Shown in pieces: positions 380 through 13,283 of a DNA stretch of 13,283 bases. Below the pieces are notes generated by a model. It made no database searches and had not been told where the DNA came from. It was given only the letters and a program-made list of their open reading frames with translations. This stretch comes from Nitrospiria bacterium (GTDB lineage Bacteria > Nitrospirota > Nitrospiria > Nitrospirales > UBA8639). The stretch's first letter is position 1. Every line of letters begins with the position of its first letter. The stretch is from the NCBI GenBank assembly GCA_030430725.1, contig JAUIKP010000034.1, positions 1 through 13,283 on the forward strand. The letters run 5' to 3'. The position numbers and the translations under genes are program-made.

Positions 380-805
380 ATGCTGAGGGCCAGATCAAGG
401 CTGTCGACATCAGAACAATTGTTAGAATTCTTCGCTGATCAGGAAAAATCAAACACCGGGAATGTAACAGAAAAGAAGACCGTACCATCAGCAGGGCCAG
501 AAAAACCATGCGTGCAATCACGAGGAAGAACGTCAAAGAGATTCAATGGTTCTCAATCAATTGAATTACAACCCAACCAACCACGAAGTAAAGAAATATT
601 CTATGCTTTTGCGCAAATAAAGGTAAGCCAAGGCTACAACATGGACGCATTGGTTGCAGAAGGAAGGCAAAAGCTCTTCTCAGGATTCTACAACCCCATT
701 GGACAATTAACACCTAAAAATCTTGGAAAAAATGATCTGTCTCCCGAACAAACCCGATGGGAGAACAGAAAAGATTTACTGAGTACGAAAGTGAATACGA
801 AGTGA
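380..805 (+). CDS. Hypothetical protein, 141 aa, doubtful
   Basis: This is the only sizeable plus-strand ORF in the gene-poor stretch 205-775. It starts with ATG directly after an A-run (no Shine-Dalgarno sequence seen) and ends with TGA at 803-805, overlapping the end of the convergent TonB-like gene by 30 bp. The product is hydrophilic, with no signal peptide or membrane segment. Residues ~20-65 are rich in S, K, E, P and Q and look disordered. The C-terminal half (from about RSKEIFYAFAQIKVSQGYN to the end) looks more like folded protein. I recognise no family. It may be a real but unannotated small protein, the remnant of a gene broken near the IS3 fragment, or a chance ORF. Nothing else recognisable is seen in 205-775. 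Confidence 0.25.
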   Translation: MLRARSRLSTSEQLLEFFADQEKSNTGNVTEKKTVPSAGPEKPCVQSRGRTSKRFNGSQSIELQPNQPRSKEIFYAFAQIKVSQGYNMDALVAEGRQKLFSGFYNPIGQLTPKNLGKNDLSPEQTRWENRKDLLSTKVNTK

Positions 806-1222
806 GACTTCACCATCAACAGGTTCCTCGCCATTCATTTGGGGCAAAAAGGTCCACTGTTTTAAAGCCAGTATAGAAGCTTGAGTGAGTTCGCGATGTG
901 CCGCAGGTTGAAGAATAACCACCGTCACATCTGAATTTTTACTGACCAATATTCGAGCTTTAAGCCAATCATCTAAGATCTGCCCATCAAGGGTAGATGG
1001 AATGGTGGGCCAGGGAGTTCGTTGTGGGACCGGCCCAATTTGTTGATCTTTATTGAGTCGTAGCCCATGGACATGGACCGTGTCGAGAGTTTCCACCTGT
1101 ATGTCTTCTTCATGGTCAGATTGATGCGTCGCGAAATCTGATTCGGCCGTATAGGAAAGCGACGGGCCACTGACTAGCCAAAGCACGTGCATGAAGAGAC
1201 CAATATTCCTGGAAATGTTCAT
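776..1222 (-). CDS. Short periplasmic/anchored protein with TonB C-terminal domain
   Basis: The 148-residue product starts at the ATG at 1222. Longer in-frame starts exist up to 1318, but they lie inside the preceding receptor gene. The chosen ATG follows the receptor stop (TAA, 1227-1229) by 4 bp, which suggests translational coupling. Residues ~7-25 are hydrophobic and could be a cleaved signal peptide or an uncleaved anchor. Residues ~80-148 resemble the TonB C-terminal domain, with the hallmark A-(L/V)-K-x-W-x-F-x-P followed by NGEEPVDGEVSLRIHF, as in energy-transducer TonB proteins. The usual long Pro-rich spacer is missing; only about 50 polar residues link the two parts. That linker carries ETLDTVHVHG, which looks like a TonB box of the kind normally found on receptors. 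No ExbB or ExbD is nearby, so any energising complex would come from elsewhere. It probably serves the adjacent receptor, either as a dedicated TonB-like partner or as an accessory periplasmic protein. Confidence 0.7.
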   Translation of the reverse strand: MNISRNIGLFMHVLWLVSGPSLSYTAESDFATHQSDHEEDIQVETLDTVHVHGLRLNKDQQIGPVPQRTPWPTIPSTLDGQILDDWLKARILVSKNSDVTVVILQPAAHRELTQASILALKQWTFLPQMNGEEPVDGEVSLRIHFRTQ

Positions 1223-1226
1223 AGAA

Positions 1227-3671
1227 TTACCCACCAAAAAAGAATTGCCCGCGAAAGAAAAAAGAACGGGGCATGTTAGCATGCGCCACACCAAGGCCAA
1301 TACTCCCCTCCCCATCATTTAGAAAGACTTGTTGATCCAGGAGATTGATGACATCAAACCCCAACAGCGCTTTATAGTTATCCCAAAGAGGTAGAAGATG
1401 TTCGATAGACAGATTATACGTGGTATAAGACGGGCTGTGAGTAGCGTTTGTCTTCCCACCGGGATCCGATGACCGAAGTCCCGATCCGAACAACATTTGT
1501 CCGGTAAGGGTAGTATATGCAAAAGGGTGATAGGTAAGCACAGCCGAACTCGTGACCAATTGCATATGATCACAATACACTCCGCTGTGAGAATTTATAT
1601 CATCAATTTCGTTTTGCTCCAACAAAAAATAACCTGACTGTAGTTTTTTCCCTCGACACTGACCCCAAGCGACATTACCGCGCCCGTACAGGTTTTCTAA
1701 AAACTTAGCCTTAACCGTCAAATCGACCCCCCGCTGCCAGCCACGCTTAAACGCAAAATAATTAAGAAGCGGGGCCGTCCCGAATTGTCCCGCATCTGAT
1801 AGATTTTTATTCAATTTATAATAACCGGTTAATTCTATGGACAATGAATCCCCCAAGGCATGAGCAGAGCCGACTTCGAAGTAATGCGCTCGCTCAGGTT
1901 CCACGGTTCGATTAGTCAAATTTTCTGGTTGTGCCGTAGTACCAATGGTATTCAGCTGAAGGAATGGAACGGATTCAAGATTTGGAGGAGTAAATAATCT
2001 TCCATAAAAGGCATGAAAGACATGATTTGGAGTCATGGCATACGTGGCTCCTACCCGTGGACTTACTTGCCCATCATTGGTCAAGGCCTGGATTTGATCG
2101 AAGCGAACGCCTAGATTAAAGGTCCATTGAGCCCAGGGGGTCCATTGATCTTGGATCCAGAATTCCTCGCGCCATCCAATGGTGCGATTATCGGCATTTC
2201 GAGAAATGACTCCCCCTATGGGATCGCCGGCTCCATCCCTCAAAAAAGCCGATAGCCTGGTTTTATTGACAGCCTGGGTCCTTTGAATCTGAAAGCCCGT
2301 TTTAATTAAATGATCAGGATTTAATCGATGACTGTAATCTAACCGTATCCCTCCAGCATAGGCCCACCGGTCCTGATCGCTTGCCGAAAAAGGCTCCTCA
2401 GTATCTTGTGTATAGGACAGGGCATTTAAAGGGTCGGTCTGGAACGTTGCTCGGGAATGCTGGAAAAAGCCCGACAAACTGAGAAACTGATCCTGACCCC
2501 AATCATGTCGCCAAACCAGATGTGAATATTGATTGTTCTCCTTCTGGTACTCATCTATATGTTGGGAATTAACCGGTTCAAAGCCCGGATCAGTCCCTTG
2601 AATAAGCCCGACAATAGTGGGATTTGCCACTAGCCCTGGTTTGGTTGGAATTTGAAATTTTGCAACTGAGTTTAGAAATAGCCACGTCACGGTATTCTGG
2701 TTATCGATTTGCAAGTCCCCGCGCACCATGGTTTGATTTTGGTTGCTTTGATCATGAAAAATCGTTTTTCCCAGGGTCGGTGGGTTAATCCCTCGGTTTG
2801 TGGAAGTAAAGCTATTTTGCAGATAGTAGCGAAAGCTTGACCCAACCGTACCCCCATACTCAAAAGCCGGATTAATGGTTTCATTCGAGCCTCCAAAATA
2901 TTGGACGGACCCAAAGCCAGGCTTGGTCCCGCTTTTGGTGGTCACGTCGATAACCGCGGCGGTTTTATTCCCGAATTGCGCCTCCGGTCCACCTAAAATA
3001 ATGTCTGCACGCTCCCAGGTTCGCGGAGAAATGACATCCGTAAACACCGAAGAGACGGTATCGGGAATTGGAACACCATCAACCCGGAATTGGTAATTGG
3101 CGTGATCTTGACGAATGTGTACTTGTTTCAGTCCCCCGTCTACCGCACTGGGAAGGGTTAAAAGCAGATCATTAAGAGCAATATTATTCCCTCGGGGTAA
3201 TTCCTCGATATCCTTGCGACTCACCGAATAGGATTCCCCCGAGAGCCGATGCTGAATAGGCGGCAAAGAGGCCACAACCTCAAGGGAAAGCTCCTGACGA
3301 TGTGCCAGGGTTAACTTGACCTCAAGTAATGGATCCTTTTTAATCTCAAGAATCGTTGATTCGCTCGATAGGTCTGACTGAATTGCTCGAATAGAATAAA
3401 CACCAGACTCAGGAGGAGCTAAAATAAACTCACCCTCTTCATTCGTCACTTGAGTCTCAATGATCGTGCCTTCTTGATCCCGCAATTCTACTGTTGCCTG
3501 AGGGACCCGGCGAAGGTCCTCATACTGCACTAAGCCGGTTACAATCCAGACCTTTTTGTTATTGTCTTTTTCCAGAGCTTGAACAAGGCTAATATCGACA
3601 AACGTCCCCAATCCGAAAATCCAGAGAACAAGTCCACCCCACTCCCCCCATTTACCATTCCCAGTCAGCAT
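1227..3671 (-). CDS. TonB-dependent outer-membrane receptor with carboxypeptidase-regulatory-like N-domain
   Basis: The 814-residue outer-membrane active transporter starts at the ATG at 3671, preceded by a G-rich SD-like run (GGGGGG) about 5 bases upstream. Residues 1-32 form a signal peptide (hydrophobic ~12-31, cleavage near VQA-LE). Residues ~41-125 are a CarboxypepD-regulatory-like beta-sandwich (VTGLV...VPQATVELRDQEGT...TNEEGEFILAPPESGVYSI). Residues ~130-250 are the plug: a TonB-box-like LSLEVVAS, then IEELPRGNN, FRVDGVPIPDT, ILGGPEAQFGNKTAAVIDVTTKSG. The remainder is the beta-barrel, with alternating aromatic strands, the conserved YYKLNKN and GVDLTVKAKF segments, and an aromatic-rich C-terminal strand. 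Two cysteines ~35 residues apart in a late barrel segment (GQCRG and VYCDHMQ) could form a loop disulfide. Total length is normal for the family. The substrate cannot be read from the sequence. The His-rich small gene upstream and the Fur-type palindrome before the operon point to a metal or metal chelate. Confidence 0.92.
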   Translation of the reverse strand: MLTGNGKWGEWGGLVLWIFGLGTFVDISLVQALEKDNNKKVWIVTGLVQYEDLRRVPQATVELRDQEGTIIETQVTNEEGEFILAPPESGVYSIRAIQSDLSSESTILEIKKDPLLEVKLTLAHRQELSLEVVASLPPIQHRLSGESYSVSRKDIEELPRGNNIALNDLLLTLPSAVDGGLKQVHIRQDHANYQFRVDGVPIPDTVSSVFTDVISPRTWERADIILGGPEAQFGNKTAAVIDVTTKSGTKPGFGSVQYFGGSNETINPAFEYGGTVGSSFRYYLQNSFTSTNRGINPPTLGKTIFHDQSNQNQTMVRGDLQIDNQNTVTWLFLNSVAKFQIPTKPGLVANPTIVGLIQGTDPGFEPVNSQHIDEYQKENNQYSHLVWRHDWGQDQFLSLSGFFQHSRATFQTDPLNALSYTQDTEEPFSASDQDRWAYAGGIRLDYSHRLNPDHLIKTGFQIQRTQAVNKTRLSAFLRDGAGDPIGGVISRNADNRTIGWREEFWIQDQWTPWAQWTFNLGVRFDQIQALTNDGQVSPRVGATYAMTPNHVFHAFYGRLFTPPNLESVPFLQLNTIGTTAQPENLTNRTVEPERAHYFEVGSAHALGDSLSIELTGYYKLNKNLSDAGQFGTAPLLNYFAFKRGWQRGVDLTVKAKFLENLYGRGNVAWGQCRGKKLQSGYFLLEQNEIDDINSHSGVYCDHMQLVTSSAVLTYHPFAYTTLTGQMLFGSGLRSSDPGGKTNATHSPSYTTYNLSIEHLLPLWDNYKALLGFDVINLLDQQVFLNDGEGSIGLGVAHANMPRSFFFRGQFFFGG

Positions 3672-3798: not shown

Positions 3799-4140
3799 TT
3801 AGGAGAAAAAAGAAGCTGGAGGACCGCGAGGGTTACCGAGGGAAAGGGCGAGAGACGTATACGTCTTTTCTCGATCAAGGGAAAAGAAACCGGAAACAAC
3901 AAACCAATGAGATAAACCCGAGTCCTCCCAAATTAAGGAATTGGAAGTATGGTGCTGTACCCATTGGCATACATCATCATCAGAATGCTGATGCCCATCA
4001 TAATCCACCTCAGCAAATACATGATGGATTCCTAAGGCCTGCACAAGCGGCATTGAACTCAACAACACCAAAGCAAGTGCTAGGACCAAGCTGAAATTAC
4101 ATTGAAAAATGAGAGGTGGCGGTTTTCGGATCATGAACAT
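3799..4140 (-). CDS. Small His-rich secreted protein with C-terminal RGPP motif (DUF2946-like)
   Basis: The 113-residue product starts at the ATG at 4140; a second ATG at 4134 is equally possible. A longer TTG start at 4176 is rejected because it lies between the -35 and -10 of the predicted promoter. A basic N-terminus (IRKPPP) and a hydrophobic core at ~15-31 form a signal peptide or anchor ending near LVQA-LG. Residues 39-64 are rich in likely metal ligands: H39, H40, several Asp/Glu, H50, H52, C58, H63 and H64, around the core DYDGHQHSDDDVCQWVQHH. The C-terminus ends NPRGPPASFFS. Short secreted proteins with a His/Cys segment and a terminal RGPP motif, such as DUF2946 members, are known near metal and TonB receptor genes; the family link is from memory and tentative. 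It is first in the receptor operon, 127 bp before the receptor. It may bind or present metal in the periplasm. No clear SD precedes either ATG. Confidence 0.6.
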   Translation of the reverse strand: MFMIRKPPPLIFQCNFSLVLALALVLLSSMPLVQALGIHHVFAEVDYDGHQHSDDDVCQWVQHHTSNSLIWEDSGLSHWFVVSGFFSLDREKTYTSLALSLGNPRGPPASFFS

Positions 4141-4166: not shown

Positions 4167-4195
4167 AAAATACCAAAGGCCCTTAGGCGTGTCAA
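4167..4195 (-). promoter_or_regulatory. Sigma70-type promoter of the TonB receptor operon
   Basis: Read on the minus strand, a perfect -35 box TTGACA lies at 4195-4190. It is followed by a 17-bp spacer and a -10 box TATTTT at 4172-4167 (4 of 6 to TATAAT). Transcription would begin near 4160, giving a leader of only ~20-26 bases before the ATG at 4140 or 4134. This promoter fixes the start choice for the small His-rich gene. Confidence 0.6.
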
Positions 4196-4200
4196 CATTA

Positions 4201-4219
4201 ATTGCAATTAAATTGCAAT
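4201..4219. promoter_or_regulatory. Perfect 19-bp palindrome, Fur-family-like operator (Nur-type TTGCAA-N5-TTGCAA)
   Basis: The sequence ATTGCAATTAAATTGCAAT is a perfect 9-1-9 inverted repeat, the arrangement of classical Fur-family boxes. It contains TTGCAA-N5-TTGCAA, the form described for the nickel-responsive Fur-family regulator Nur of Streptomyces. It lies 5 bp upstream of the -35 box of the receptor operon, about -41 to -59 relative to the expected start. Each arm region also contains the self-complementary ATTGCAAT. The palindrome is directly visible; assignment to a metal regulator is inference. Confidence 0.6.
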
Positions 4220-4455: not shown

Positions 4456-4472
4456 AAGGATTTACGCCATTG
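4456..4472 (+). promoter_or_regulatory. RBS and TTG start codon of the aspartic protease gene
   Basis: AAGGA at 4456-4460 stands 9 bases before a TTG at 4470-4472. No ATG precedes the hydrophobic anchor in this frame, so the SD supports TTG as the start. Confidence 0.5.
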
Positions 4473-5018
4473 GGGACTGCCAACAGACTTTTTATTACCT
4501 TTACGGTATTAGCGATTGGTACCGTGGTGGGTGTGCATGCTTTTCTCAATCAATTATCTTTGGACCAATCTCTTCGTCCCACTCGTTCGCATTCTCCAAA
4601 ACCAGCCCAAGTGACTGCTGGGAGCGAAGATTCTGTGATTTCCCTTGAACATTTAGGAGGTGTTTGGGTGGCCCGCGTGGAGTTGAATGATTTCCATGAA
4701 GCCAGACTCATCGTTGATACGGGGGCAACATTTACAACAATTTCAGAAGATTTGGCATTTGATGCGGGGATTCGGTCAGATACGGCCAATTCGCCGATTA
4801 ACCTCAATACTGTAGGGGGAAGGGTTCAAGCCGAACTAGGCGTCGCACGAAGAATTCGTGTGGGCAATACAGGCCGAGATGATGTCCGAGTGGTCATACA
4901 TACCATACCGAACCTCCCCGATGGGATCGACGGCCTACTCGGCCTCAGTTTCTTTGATCGCTTCCTGGTCCGTCTGGACCACTCGAACCAACAGTTATAT
5001 CTCACGCCAAGGACTTAG
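4470..5018 (+). CDS. Membrane-anchored retropepsin-like aspartic protease
   Basis: The product has 182 residues and starts at TTG. Residues ~7-26 form one hydrophobic segment, an uncleaved anchor or signal, followed by a ~30-residue Ser/Pro-rich linker. From ~60 to the end is a clan AA single-lobe aspartic protease domain. It has a flap-like start HLGGVWVARVELND, the catalytic LIVDTGATFTT (Asp83 of D-T-G-A), a glycine-rich VGGRVQAELG stretch, and the second hydrophobic-Gly element DGLLGLSFFDRF with LDHSNQQLYL. This matches the bacterial retropepsin-like proteins (TIGR02281/gag-asp-type) that work as dimers. The domain would face the periplasm. Substrate and physiological role are unknown. It stands alone, 329 bp from the operator-side start of the divergent receptor operon and 243 bp before the next gene. 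Confidence 0.85.
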   Translation: MGTANRLFITFTVLAIGTVVGVHAFLNQLSLDQSLRPTRSHSPKPAQVTAGSEDSVISLEHLGGVWVARVELNDFHEARLIVDTGATFTTISEDLAFDAGIRSDTANSPINLNTVGGRVQAELGVARRIRVGNTGRDDVRVVIHTIPNLPDGIDGLLGLSFFDRFLVRLDHSNQQLYLTPRT

Positions 5019-9469: not shown

Positions 9470-9760
9470 ATGACCTCCTCAAGTGACCCAAACTCAATGA
9501 CCGTAGAACACGCACTGCTGCTGCTGAATCTCACAGAGCCACTTTCGCCTGATGCCTTACAGCAACGATATGAGGAAGCCAGGCGAGTCTGGTATCCGTC
9601 ACGTTACGCAGGCCTCACCAATAATCCAGCGAAGTATATGGAAATGTACAAAAAGGGAGAGGCCAAAACGAAAGAAGTTCATGCAGCCTATCAAATTCTA
9701 TCCAATCACCTACTGAATAGCCGTTCCTCTTCACCACAAGACGATCACGGAGCAACATGA
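9470..9760 (+). CDS. Small J-domain-like protein lacking HPD
   Basis: The product has 96 residues and starts at the ATG at 9470. Residues ~11-80 have the helical layout of a J domain: TVEHALLLLNL (helix I), LSPDALQQRYEEARRVW (helix II), a loop, then KKGEAKTKEVHAAYQILSNHL (helix III, compare FxxIxxAYExLS). The position of the HPD tripeptide, normally YHPDR, reads WYPSR here, so His and Asp are missing. It should not stimulate DnaK ATPase in the usual way. It resembles the degenerate J-like proteins that act as binding or scaffold modules. Its last 16 bases overlap the end of the convergent B12-type radical SAM gene, and its start faces away from the other radical SAM gene. An SD is weak or absent. 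The family call is by pattern. Confidence 0.65.
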   Translation: MTSSSDPNSMTVEHALLLLNLTEPLSPDALQQRYEEARRVWYPSRYAGLTNNPAKYMEMYKKGEAKTKEVHAAYQILSNHLLNSRSSSPQDDHGAT

Positions 9761-11712
9761 CTGACCACCCGAGACATTCCTGGCTCACCTTTTGAATTAT
9801 TCTCGGAAGGGGCATTTGATACAGGCCAGGTAATGAGACCTTGAACCCCATCAGTTCGTGGTTCATCCTGCCCAGCTTTCATCGCATAGATCTGGGGAAG
9901 GTAATTCGTGCCAAATTTAGAAATATAGAGGAATACATGTTCGCGAGCATTCACTCTAACAGCCCATGGTTCAAAATCCTTCCGATAAAACTCCTCTGCC
10001 AATTGCATCGCCTCTAAACAAGTGATTCCACCTGGTTCTTTCAGTGTGTAATAGTAATCAAGAGGCATATCATACTCTTCCTGCTTATGAATAGTGATAC
10101 CATACTTATCAGGATTCCGAACCATTGGTGTATGTCGGTAAGCGACAAAATAAAATAATTCCACCGAATGAATAAACCGTTTATTTTCCAGGAGAAATTC
10201 CCGCGTCTCCTCTGCTTCATCCCGTGTTTCGCCAGGAAAGCCATAGAAAGCCATCACATGATTCCAGATCCCAGCTTTAGCGGCCTCCCGTAAATTATTT
10301 TCAATCACCGCTTTTTTTGCATGCTTATCCATCAGCTCCAGTACACGCTCATTGGCTGATTCCATCCCATAATACAGCGTGCAACAGCCCGCCCGAACGG
10401 CTTGTTTCCATATTTCAGGATCCTGCAATGATTCTTCAAAGCGGATTAAAGTTGTCCATTTTATCCCCACCTGTTCCTCAATCAACAATTGCGAAACCTT
10501 TTTTAATAACGCGGGAGGGTAGGATTCATCTGAAAATAAAAAGTGTTCTGCCTGGTATTTCTCCTTCAAGGCTTTGATTTCTCGAACCACATCCTGCGCG
10601 GGTTTTCCACGGTACTGATCGAAATATCCCTGCCCATGATCACAAAAAGTACATCGTCCCCAATAACACCCTCGAGTGGCCAAGTAGGGTAAAATTCGAA
10701 CCGGGACAAAATAAGCATCCAACGGTAATCCCTCAAAATCCGGAAGAGGCAAGGCCGTCGTCTTTTCGGTATATATTTCATCATTCACACGGACCTCCCC
10801 TTCTTGATGCCACATCAAGTTAGGAACCTTGCCCCAGTCTCGTTCACCCGCCAGCGCTTCCAGCAACCAAACCAACGCATGTTCACCTTCATACAAAATG
10901 GCCGAATCAAAGACTTGCGTGAAAAATTCCTTCCGTGTTGGGAGGTCATCTTTTAACCGGGTAATCACGTTGCCACCTACGGTCACATGAATGTCGGGAA
11001 ATTCCTCCTTAATGATTTTACAAAAGGTCATACCAGCCAGGAGTTGCATTTGGGTCCCGACGGAAACTCCTATCACTTCCGGTTGCTCTTTCTGAATAGC
11101 AGGAAGCACTAACTGGCGGCACACATCCCGATACACGTTGACAAGTTCGTCATCCAGGCATGCCAACACCTCCGTCGACACTCCCGAGCGATATCCCAGA
11201 TTACTTTCCATGGGATAGAAAACGAGGGAAGCGGGGAAATAGGCGGCAGAAATAAATTGCATAACATCGCGAAATGTCCGCAAGGCCCATTCCAGTTTTC
11301 CCGCATCATAAAATGACTCGCCTCGCACAATGGCTTTGGCTTCTATAGCTCGTTCAGCCAATTCCATTACATCTATAGCATCTTGCGACGTTAAACACGC
11401 CAGTCGGTCTCGTTCCAAATCGGTCAATTCATTGCGGGCTTTCCGTTCGTTCAAACCTCGCCGTTGCTGATCCATCCGAAGCTTTACCCAGATTAAAAAG
11501 GTATCACTGAAAAACCAGTCGTACATTTCAATGTTGACATCTTTCTGTACCACCTCATGGCCATAGGAGCGGAGGACGGCAGTCAGGCTGGGCAGAGCAA
11601 GGTATGGAGCGGTAGGGACCCATTCCGGAGGAAAGAGCAGCATTGTTTTAAACGTCCGTCTGGATTTATCGGTCGAACCACCACGCACGATTTCAATTAA
11701 GGTATCAGTCAT
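9745..11712 (-). CDS. B12-binding-type radical SAM protein (second of a tandem pair)
   Basis: The 655-residue product starts at the ATG at 11712, preceded by AGGAG (11727-11723) 10 bases upstream. The longer ORF (to 11832) would overlap the preceding gene. Residues ~21-65 are the first part of a B12-binding Rossmann domain (MLLFPPEWVPTAPYLALPSL, then LRSYGHEVVQKDVN). A helical insert of about 140 residues follows, then the rest of the fold (PEVIGVSVGTQMQLLAG, FPDIHVTVGGNVITRL, 211-253). The radical SAM motif is RGCYWGRCTFC (Cys349, 353, 356), then FLFSDESYPPALL and FYGFPGETRDEAEE further on. This is the class B cobalamin-type radical SAM layout, often methyltransferases, though not all members bind B12; a DxHxxG motif is not present. 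It lies 19 bp after its upstream paralogue and so is probably cotranscribed. Substrate unknown. Confidence 0.88.
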   Translation of the reverse strand: MTDTLIEIVRGGSTDKSRRTFKTMLLFPPEWVPTAPYLALPSLTAVLRSYGHEVVQKDVNIEMYDWFFSDTFLIWVKLRMDQQRRGLNERKARNELTDLERDRLACLTSQDAIDVMELAERAIEAKAIVRGESFYDAGKLEWALRTFRDVMQFISAAYFPASLVFYPMESNLGYRSGVSTEVLACLDDELVNVYRDVCRQLVLPAIQKEQPEVIGVSVGTQMQLLAGMTFCKIIKEEFPDIHVTVGGNVITRLKDDLPTRKEFFTQVFDSAILYEGEHALVWLLEALAGERDWGKVPNLMWHQEGEVRVNDEIYTEKTTALPLPDFEGLPLDAYFVPVRILPYLATRGCYWGRCTFCDHGQGYFDQYRGKPAQDVVREIKALKEKYQAEHFLFSDESYPPALLKKVSQLLIEEQVGIKWTTLIRFEESLQDPEIWKQAVRAGCCTLYYGMESANERVLELMDKHAKKAVIENNLREAAKAGIWNHVMAFYGFPGETRDEAEETREFLLENKRFIHSVELFYFVAYRHTPMVRNPDKYGITIHKQEEYDMPLDYYYTLKEPGGITCLEAMQLAEEFYRKDFEPWAVRVNAREHVFLYISKFGTNYLPQIYAMKAGQDEPRTDGVQGLITWPVSNAPSENNSKGEPGMSRVVSHVAP

Positions 11713-11731
11713 AGGGTCAACGCTCCTGACA

Positions 11732-13283
11732 TTAGACAGAGGCCAATTTCGTTGAGGAATCGTGCGAGTCAAGCCGAAATTGCAGCGATGGTAGTTTATT
11801 GGTCCCGAAGTGGGCCACGTATAAAAACACATACTCCCGCACGAAAATTTTCAAATCCCACCCAGCGTAATGATTCTGCTCAAATTCTTCGAATACCCGT
11901 TCGGCATCCTCAATACTCAATCCTTCTTTCACCGTAAAATAGTAATCCAGGGCCAAATCCCATTCCGGATTTTTATAATAGGTGATGCCAAATTTTTCAG
12001 GATTTTTTGCGACGGGGGTATGCTTGCTTAAATCAAAGGTCCCAAATCCAATTGAATGGACGTGTTCTCGATTATCTTCTAAAAATTGAATAGAGAATTT
12101 GGCCTCTTGGTAGGTTTCACCAGGAAATCCAAAAAATCCCATGACATGATTCCAAACCCCGTGTTTAGAGGACAACTCCAAGCTTCGCTGAATCACCTCC
12201 GTTGTGGTCGCCTTATCCATGAGTTGAAGCACACGCTCACTTCCGGATTCATAGCCCATATGGAGGAATTTACATCCCGATGTCCGGGCATCCGCCCAAA
12301 CTTGGTCCTCAAGAAGACTCTTTTCGAAACGAATATGTGTGGTCCACGCAATATCTAAATTTGACTCAATCAGTTTCTTGGTGAGCTTTCGAAATAAGGC
12401 CGGAGGATAGGACTCATCGGTAAAATGAAAATTTCTAGCCTGATACTTATTTTTCAAATGAGTGAGTTCTTCAATAATCTGCCAATCCCTTTTGGTCCGA
12501 TACCCTGCGGTATAACCCTCACCATGATCACAGAATTCACACCGCCCCCAGTAACATCCGCGGGTGGCTAAATAGGGAAGAATCGGCTCGGGTACAAAGT
12601 ATTTCTCTAATGGCAATCCGTCAAAATCTGGAGGAGGTAACTCGCCCATATTTTCCGCGTAGGATTCGGAATTCACATGAATCCCAGCTGCATCTCTGAA
12701 CAATAAATTAGGAACATGTGACAAATCCCCATCCGAGCCTATGGCTTCCACTAATCGCAATAGGGCCGTTTCACCTTCATAAACAATTGCGCTATCAAAT
12801 AATGCGAAGAGATTTGGAATATCTGGAAGCACTTCTCTCAGACGGGTGACGGTATTGCCTCCAATGGTCACATGAATATCGGGAAACTGCTCTTTAATGA
12901 GCGCACAAAATGTCATAGATGAAAACAATTGTTGTCGAAGAACAATGGAAATCCCAATGACATCAGGATTTTCCGCAAGAATAGCTGGTTTCAGGATTTC
13001 CTCAAACACATCGCGATAAATATTGACTTGAGTATCCTCAACAGCCTCAAGCACTTCAGACGACATAAAAAGTTTATAGGATAAATCGGTCTCCATCGGA
13101 GGCATGCAAATTCTTGCCGGGGCATACACCAAGGATATCGTTGCCGTTACTTCCCTGAATGTGTTCATTACCCATTCCAGCTTGTCACTTTCGTAAAACT
13201 CTTGGCTGCGCACAATTTCTTTTGCTTTCTCAGCTCTGTCAGCTAAATCGCTGATGTAGCCCCGGGTACAATTGCAGAGAGCT
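11732..13283 (-). CDS. B12-binding-type radical SAM protein, N-terminus outside window (first of tandem pair)
   Basis: The visible 516 residues run open to the right edge of the window. A GTG at 13213 is not the true start: the frame continues upstream, and residues there (ISDLADRAEKAKEIVRSQEF) align with the matching helix of the downstream paralogue. About 105 N-terminal residues, including the first B12-domain strand, are missing from view by comparison with that paralogue. The visible part has the end of the B12-like domain (PDVIGISIVLRQQLFSS, FPDIHVTIGGNTVTRL), the cluster motif ATRGCYWGRCEFCDHGEGY (Cys 243, 247, 250 of the visible part), NFHFTDESYPPALF and a C-terminal GWDLKIFVREYVFLYVAHF segment. 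It is homologous to the next gene over its full visible length. Both keep intact CxxxCxxC motifs, so both copies look active. Substrate unknown; promoter and start lie beyond the edge. Confidence 0.88.
   Translation of the reverse strand, partial: ALCNCTRGYISDLADRAEKAKEIVRSQEFYESDKLEWVMNTFREVTATISLVYAPARICMPPMETDLSYKLFMSSEVLEAVEDTQVNIYRDVFEEILKPAILAENPDVIGISIVLRQQLFSSMTFCALIKEQFPDIHVTIGGNTVTRLREVLPDIPNLFALFDSAIVYEGETALLRLVEAIGSDGDLSHVPNLLFRDAAGIHVNSESYAENMGELPPPDFDGLPLEKYFVPEPILPYLATRGCYWGRCEFCDHGEGYTAGYRTKRDWQIIEELTHLKNKYQARNFHFTDESYPPALFRKLTKKLIESNLDIAWTTHIRFEKSLLEDQVWADARTSGCKFLHMGYESGSERVLQLMDKATTTEVIQRSLELSSKHGVWNHVMGFFGFPGETYQEAKFSIQFLEDNREHVHSIGFGTFDLSKHTPVAKNPEKFGITYYKNPEWDLALDYYFTVKEGLSIEDAERVFEEFEQNHYAGWDLKIFVREYVFLYVAHFGTNKLPSLQFRLDSHDSSTKLASV

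Follow-up and report, generated by a model that had tools for sequence, protein, structure and literature searches.

A putative operator of a Fur-family regulator in front of a candidate zinc-uptake operon of a Nitrospirales bacterium

The stretch of DNA analyzed in this study (the window) comprises positions 1 to 13,283 of contig JAUIKP010000034.1 from a Nitrospiria bacterium of the order Nitrospirales (assembly GCA_030430725.1), and the element in question is a 19-base palindrome standing in front of a minus-strand operon. We describe here its relation to a Fur-family protein encoded elsewhere in the same genome, which we named FurZ. The 19-mer reads ATTGCAATT-A-AATTGCAAT, that is, an exact 9-1-9 palindrome centred at position 4210, and its core has the form TTGCAA-N5-TTGCAA. 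The original prediction, made from the window alone, regarded it as a Fur-family operator of the Nur type for a metal-uptake operon. Its statement that the palindrome lies 5 base pairs (bp) before a TTGACA-17-TATTTT promoter was confirmed by reading positions 4167-4219.

The operon behind this promoter begins with a small His-rich gene, called HisSmall in this study, which is followed by genes for a TonB-dependent receptor and a TonB-like protein (Table 1). For HisSmall, the ATG at 4134 was preferred as the start over the listed TTG at 4176. HisSmall had no match in Pfam or NCBIfam, and a search of the receptor against solved structures gave no match at E values up to 0.001. The original prediction held that these neighbours suit metal control, and the comparisons given below support the group as a metal-uptake operon.

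Table 1. Features around the palindrome in the window.
Feature	Position	Strand	Basis or remark
Putative FurZ operator; TTGCAA-N5-TTGCAA core at 4202-4218 inside the perfect 9-1-9 palindrome	4201..4219	.	Sequence and comparison
-35 hexamer TTGACA; 5 bp past the 19-mer, 6 bp past the 17-nucleotide core	4190..4195	-	Geometry kept in 27/28 sites
-10 hexamer TATTTT after a 17-bp spacer; TA-initial hexamer in relatives	4167..4172	-	Sequence and relatives
HisSmall; small His-rich gene, N-terminal hydrophobic segment, 111 amino acids	3799..4134	-	Open reading frame and relatives
TonB-dependent outer-membrane receptor, 814 amino acids, operon gene 2	1227..3671	-	Open reading frame and relatives
TonB C-terminal-domain protein, operon gene 3	776..1318	-	Open reading frame and relatives
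Divergent aspartyl-protease-like gene	4470..5018	+	Several box-bearing relatives lack the gene here

The window contains only one perfect 9-1-9 palindrome. When the window was shuffled with its dinucleotides preserved, 10 of 200 shuffles contained such a palindrome (mean, 0.05). That is, the palindrome by itself is only mildly unusual, and for this reason the comparative data are decisive.

In the genome to which the window belongs (3,519,148 bases, 83.41% complete), the exact TTGCAA-N5-TTGCAA pattern occurs at two places, and the reversed pattern used as a control occurs at none. A search for further exact sites had been proposed in the original prediction, and the one additional site that it yielded (contig C370, positions 2126-2142) lies at the promoter of furZ, a gene of the Fur family at about positions 2175-2597 of the same contig. 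Some 30 bp separate the end of this second site from the aligned FurZ start, and the site overlaps the place where the -10 of a TTGACA promoter is expected; a gene for a MerC-like protein with a MerC domain lies downstream of furZ. FurZ contains the Fur superfamily domain PF01475 (93.5 bits; cut-off, 23.1) and is one of four Fur-family matches in the genome. The fourth match (contig C110, positions 70-267; locus L006) matches the domain in its N-terminal part alone, continues into a different tail, and is possibly a truncated Fur or the product of an assembly edge.

Among 48 genomes of the window's family, 32 carried the exact site, at 61 places: 24 before FurZ, 28 before HisSmall or a gene like it, and 9 elsewhere. 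The window's own genus (g1, 20 genomes) accounted for 40 exact places and 4 places with the reversed pattern. Eighteen of the 40 were before FurZ(-MerC), 18 (in 17 genomes) before HisSmall, and 4 elsewhere. It was clear that all 18 genomes of the genus in which FurZ was found (identity of 73% or more) carry the exact box before it. Two exact sites in two different genera (L143:2984 and L154:3217) lie just upstream of genes named by eye as Hsp20-like, perhaps by chance.

FurZ homologues were surveyed in 146 genomes of the order with a threshold of at least 47% identity, and at this threshold they were present in several genera of the window's family. We fetched 39 FurZ neighbourhoods outside the set with an exact site (leaving out G083 and G101 of family f3, which we take as Nitrospiraceae) and set aside six diverged paralogues (L202-L207), so that 33 orthologues were compared. 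In 31 of the 33, the upstream sequence contained a box with no more than 2 mismatches, at a distance of 22-151 bp from the aligned start; of the remaining two, L226 had a box with 3 mismatches and L197 had none. The box form in f3 was mostly AATGCAA-N5-TTGCAa/t. For 56 orthologue upstreams taken together, the box was found at the same tolerance in 54, compared with 0/56 for the reversed pattern and 9/1120 for mononucleotide shuffles, but 23 of these had been chosen for holding the exact site (L137 was dropped, its upstream being too short), and the figure from the 33 loci is the fairer one.

Because the box and FurZ go together across genomes, we think that 4201-4219 is very probably an operator of FurZ. 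In this respect the original prediction of a Fur-family operator for a metal-uptake operon held well, as a Fur-family gene shares the box, and box and regulator co-occur in the sampled order. The contrary explanation, that the palindrome arose by chance, agrees with the shuffles described above but is contradicted by the conservation and by the association with FurZ; we rejected it and regard its probability as negligible. When the search was relaxed to the 19-base pattern with at most 2 mismatches in seven genomes, 13-28 places per genome were found, compared with 4-8 for the control. Among the matches listed for G021, G029, G030 and G037 (19 of 25 in G037), ten were followed, of which seven were in open reading frames and three were intergenic without a shared context; these ten added no regulon member.

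Three of the paralogous loci (L202:1929-3491, L203:798-2382 and L204:1524-3308) contain a module of their own, in which a protein named FurZ2 is accompanied by MerC and by its own His-rich small gene. FurZ2 has 53% identity to FurZ and has lost H91-H93, D105, C109 and H129. The palindrome upstream of it is also different (GATGAAAATTTTTTTCATT or its complement). FurZ2 may respond to another signal by way of another box.

The original prediction described the site as a 9-1-9 repeat of the Fur type. This is correct for the window, but a perfect 9-1-9 palindrome was found in only 5 of the 28 uptake-type sites and in none of the 24 FurZ sites. Since the base pairs that extend the core to 9-1-9 (one outer pair and two inner pairs) are not conserved among the sites, the conserved operator unit, as judged from the aligned sites, is 6-5-6.

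The position of the box relative to the promoter differed between the two kinds of targets. In 27 of the 28 uptake-type promoters, the box is followed after 3-6 bp by a -35 of the TTGAC/TTGATA type, a spacer of 17 bp (18 in L146) and a -10 of the TA type, and a relative of HisSmall is the first gene after the same number of sites. L148 is the exception to this layout, and there a different small His-containing open reading frame, called by eye, comes first. For L128 and L131 the best-match script chose a nearer hexamer, and TTGACT at a gap of 6 is a reading by eye. Thus the placement of the site upstream of -35, as originally predicted, is real and is conserved in relatives. In the FurZ promoters, a TTGACA-like hexamer was located 26-27 bp before the start of the box in 21 of 24, which puts the -10 under the box. 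Allowing one mismatch at most, the script gave 22, but this count includes L141, where the distance is 35 bp; L132 had no such hexamer and L137 was truncated.

A survey of relatives of the TonB receptor gave 74 loci. In seven of them, the exact box was found 509-577 bp before the receptor match, directly upstream of the HisSmall promoter. That is, the box was kept in all seven close relatives (76-98% identity) in which the region was present; L008 and L014, also close, lack the region. These seven loci duplicate genomes of the family set and are not independent of the site counts given above. In the alignment, the box and the -35 and -10 of the minus-strand gene formed one conserved block, while the sequence on the other side drifted.

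This asymmetry bears on the divergent gene at 4470. A palindromic box between two transcription units might serve this protease-like gene, either solely or in addition to the operon, and many genomes of the genus have this gene next to the box. However, the conserved block extends only toward the minus-strand promoter, and relatives with HisSmall and a ZnuA-type operon (L131, L149 and L151) keep the box without that gene adjoining it. We consider such a role very unlikely, and because several box-bearing relatives do not have the gene here, our explanation would not need it.

Which metal is sensed was considered from the genes that stand behind the box. In G021, G022, G023 and G025 (genus g9), G018 (g6), and G040 and G042 (g1), genes for a porin-like protein and an ATP-binding cassette (ABC) operon of the ZnuA type stand behind the box and HisSmall in place of the TonB receptor; the stretches fetched for G040 and G042 stop within the ATPase gene. 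In the G021 copy, Pfam recognized ZnuA (PF01297; E = 2.8e-47) and ABC-3 (E = 1.1e-28), and the best NCBIfam matches of the three ABC parts were AztA, AztB and ZnuA, all below their cut-offs. Over the 48 family genomes, PF01297 was found in 10 and the TonB receptor (E up to 1e-100) in 31, none had both, and 7 had neither, several of these 7 being incomplete assemblies. For this mutual exclusion, Fisher's test gave p = 3e-6 with kinship ignored. ZnuA was present in g1, g6, g8 and g9, and the exchange in the same slot was seen in g1, g6 and g9. In G040 (L128:11559-13426), a fragment of a TonB-like gene remains next to the HisSmall-porin-ZnuA operon, as might be left by an in-place replacement of the TonB system. 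In-frame stops (two TGA and one TAG) break up the TonB receptor gene of G041 (L129:3959-6281).

A second indication comes from the surroundings of FurZ. In 15 of 21 Nitrospiraceae loci, a GTPase of the CobW/COG0523 type was found near FurZ, with one copy checked by Pfam. In L213, L215, L218, L224 and L225 of the same family, FurZ recurs in a cassette with the COG0523 GTPase and a WD40 protein downstream, often with a further small protein. ZnuABC, COG0523 proteins and TonB receptors are regular Zur targets (PMC6103462; see also PMC4176598). Because the ZnuA-type and COG0523 contexts match these regular targets, the sensed metal is most likely zinc rather than nickel. The targets of the FurZ box, judged from their neighbourhood and the operator, would then be zinc-uptake genes of the kind controlled by Zur, with zinc as the metal presumably carried.

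The original prediction of nickel was not supported by this comparison. If the site were a Nur box and the operon imported nickel, the invariant HHHH stretch of FurZ would be understandable, and weak NicO-family matches occur in 6 of the 8 other genomes searched (6 of 9 with the own genome counted), two of them over the cut-off. In contrast, the same promoter and box precede the ZnuA-type operon in relatives, and COG0523 stands near FurZ. The own genome, which is 83% complete, yielded no NicO-family gene, and no nickel or superoxide dismutase gene was recognized at the mapped sites, although no search was aimed at nikABCDE or sodN. The ZnuA-type and COG0523 contexts rule out nickel control as the best reading, and we regard it as highly improbable.

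The sequence of FurZ itself was compared in 58 aligned rows, in which the own protein is counted twice. The structural zinc site of four Cys residues (two CxxC motifs; C97, C100, C137 and C140) was identical in 58/58 rows, and E84, H91-H94 (HHHH), D105, C109 and H129 were likewise invariant. The residue at position 34, which we take to match the Ni ligand of Nur in the N-terminal domain, was His in only 3 of the 58 rows, two of which are the own protein. The M site of Nur consists of four His residues (PMC7055735). As to the Fur-family gene with ligands of the Nur or Zur type, for which the original prediction proposed a search, FurZ keeps the Cys4 site, His34 is rare, and the sensory Cys79 of Streptomyces coelicolor Zur aligns to a Lys.

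Manganese or another metal should also be considered. FurZ might resemble Mur, and both the ABC transporter and the TonB receptor might carry that metal. Manganese importers are found among PF01297/ABC-3 transporters, TGCAA half-sites also occur in rhizobial Mur boxes, and the score of the binding protein with manganese MntC (71.4 bits) is close to those with ZnuA (83.9) and AztC (72.0). The sensory Cys of S. coelicolor Zur is also absent from FurZ. However, the best NCBIfam matches for all three ABC parts are zinc models, COG0523 stands near FurZ, and C109 and HHHH are invariant. We therefore think that a metal other than zinc is unlikely, though less so than nickel.

We propose that the site is a FurZ operator through which FurZ, as a zinc-bound repressor, controls furZ itself and the zinc-uptake operon, with derepression on zinc shortage; we would give this reading a probability of about two in three. 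A zinc-bound FurZ dimer would sit on the 6-5-6 core. At furZ, the box over the -10 and the start region suggests autorepression by blocking of the promoter. At the HisSmall-TonB receptor-TonB operon, the bound dimer may cover the UP-element region and crowd the -35. On zinc shortage, FurZ would release the DNA and the outer-membrane system for scavenging zinc would be made.

The sign of control at the uptake operon needs separate consideration, because a box centred near -50 can act either by repression through the UP-element region and the -35 flank or by activation. Apo-FurZ might activate the uptake operon from -47/-50 under zinc shortage while repressing its own gene, which would agree with the box lying directly upstream of -35 in 27/28 uptake promoters and over the -10 in 21/24 FurZ promoters. 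In S. coelicolor, zitB is activated by Zur from a box upstream of -35 (PMC6103462). As to the -35 of the uptake-type promoters, it is exactly TTGACA in 17 of the 28, which would suit promoters that are active without help. Activator-dependent promoters mostly lack a consensus -35. The gap of 3-6 bp also varies, by which the helical face changes, and activation by the zinc-bound form, as at zitB, would hardly suit an importer of zinc. Since the -35 is strong, the gap varies and the targets serve uptake, we favour repression, and consider activation a minor possibility. A wider proposal, equally tentative, is that FurZ represents a new zinc-sensing branch of the Fur family, with a Nur-type box and its own ligands (E84/H91-94/D105/C109/H129), which represses its own gene at the -10 and activates uptake from upstream of -35, the regulated slot holding two unrelated and mutually exclusive uptake systems.

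Several findings weigh against FurZ as a zinc-bound repressor of zinc uptake. In the wider order, 58 of 59 HisSmall-TonB loci had no box at up to 2 mismatches, and the match in L059, with 2 mismatches, was poor. These 59 loci, from Nitrospira and relatives (55-65% identity), have at least 1361 bp of upstream sequence each; 8 others of the 67 remaining receptor loci, with less than 600 bp, were set aside. That is, the box belongs to the TonB operon in the window's family and not in Nitrospira/Nitrospiraceae, and conservation before orthologous operons, which the original prediction named as a check, holds in the family only. In a simple, non-exhaustive scan of 61 upstream stretches, no shared replacement palindrome stood out before the Nitrospiraceae operon. 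FurZ was found in 23 of 86 sampled f3 genomes, G015 has FurZ without a box, and of the nine family sites elsewhere, several fall within unrelated genes and two lie close to Hsp20 genes. The ZnuB/C genes of G039 adjoin HisSmall on the opposite strand, and in G020 (g8) ZnuA and the box are on different contigs. FurZ reaches no curated NCBIfam cut-off (Fur, 99.3; PerR, 85.4; Zur, 35.7 bits); its score with the Zur equivalog PRK11639 is far below the cut-off of 167, and it reaches that of no other equivalog. In the alignment, Lys86 of FurZ stands where S. coelicolor Zur has its sensory Cys79, PF01297 is shared with manganese transporters as mentioned above, and zitB is a precedent for activation. 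According to the literature, the sensory-site ligands (N2OS) of E. coli Zur and of the actinobacterial Zur proteins are not the same. Taken comprehensively, it is better supported that FurZ works like a Zur than that it is a Zur.

Farther along the window, the minus strand between 8096 and 13213 encodes a 414-amino-acid CxxxCxxC-containing protein with no Pfam match, a radical-SAM protein (9745-11832) that also matches a B12-binding domain, and a second radical-SAM-like protein whose likeness was judged by eye (11732-13213).

In our literature search, PMC3919588 was the only paper with the string TTGCAA-N5-TTGCAA, and no paper on a Zur regulon of Nitrospira or on zinc regulation in this order was found. 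What appears to be new is the combination of a Nur-consensus box, a Zur-like gene content, the ligand set of FurZ and the fixed layout upstream of -35, of which the search gave no description in Nitrospirales. These findings connect a regulator of the Fur family with its operator across an order to which nitrite oxidizers belong. They also suggest that the box sequence alone may not tell the metal, since a Nur-consensus box stands in front of zinc-type genes. Furthermore, the natural swap of a TonB receptor for a ZnuA-type transporter behind one promoter offers a handle on the exchange of uptake systems.

Comparison with known systems shows both likeness and difference. The Nur box of S. coelicolor (tTGCaa-N5-ttGCAA; PMC3919588) has the same half-site and spacing and is likewise the operator of a Fur-family dimer over metal genes. 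In contrast, the present system is of another phylum, its uptake targets are of the zinc type, FurZ has no conserved His34, and neither a nickel nor a superoxide dismutase gene was recognized at the mapped sites. The FurZ box is not known to share its sequence with a Zur box. Zur boxes vary between clades (PMC6103462). The Zur regulons of E. coli, S. coelicolor and Caulobacter resemble the FurZ system in combining a ZnuABC-type transporter, a TonB receptor and COG0523 with a Fur-family protein having a Cys4 site (PMC6103462). They differ from it in the sensory Cys79 of S. coelicolor Zur, which is Lys in FurZ, and in the box of the uptake operon, which here lies upstream of -35. The zitB box shares this upstream position, but zitB is an efflux gene activated at high zinc, whereas the genes here are for uptake (PMC6103462). 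Finally, the ZepA system for zinc acquisition, described in Anabaena with a neighbouring FUR gene and also reported in Nitrospirota, has its own motifs upstream of zepA and resembles the present system in its secreted zinc-binding protein, TonB-dependent transporter and nearby Fur-family genes (PMC10957091). HisSmall, the candidate counterpart of ZepA, has about 110 amino acids.
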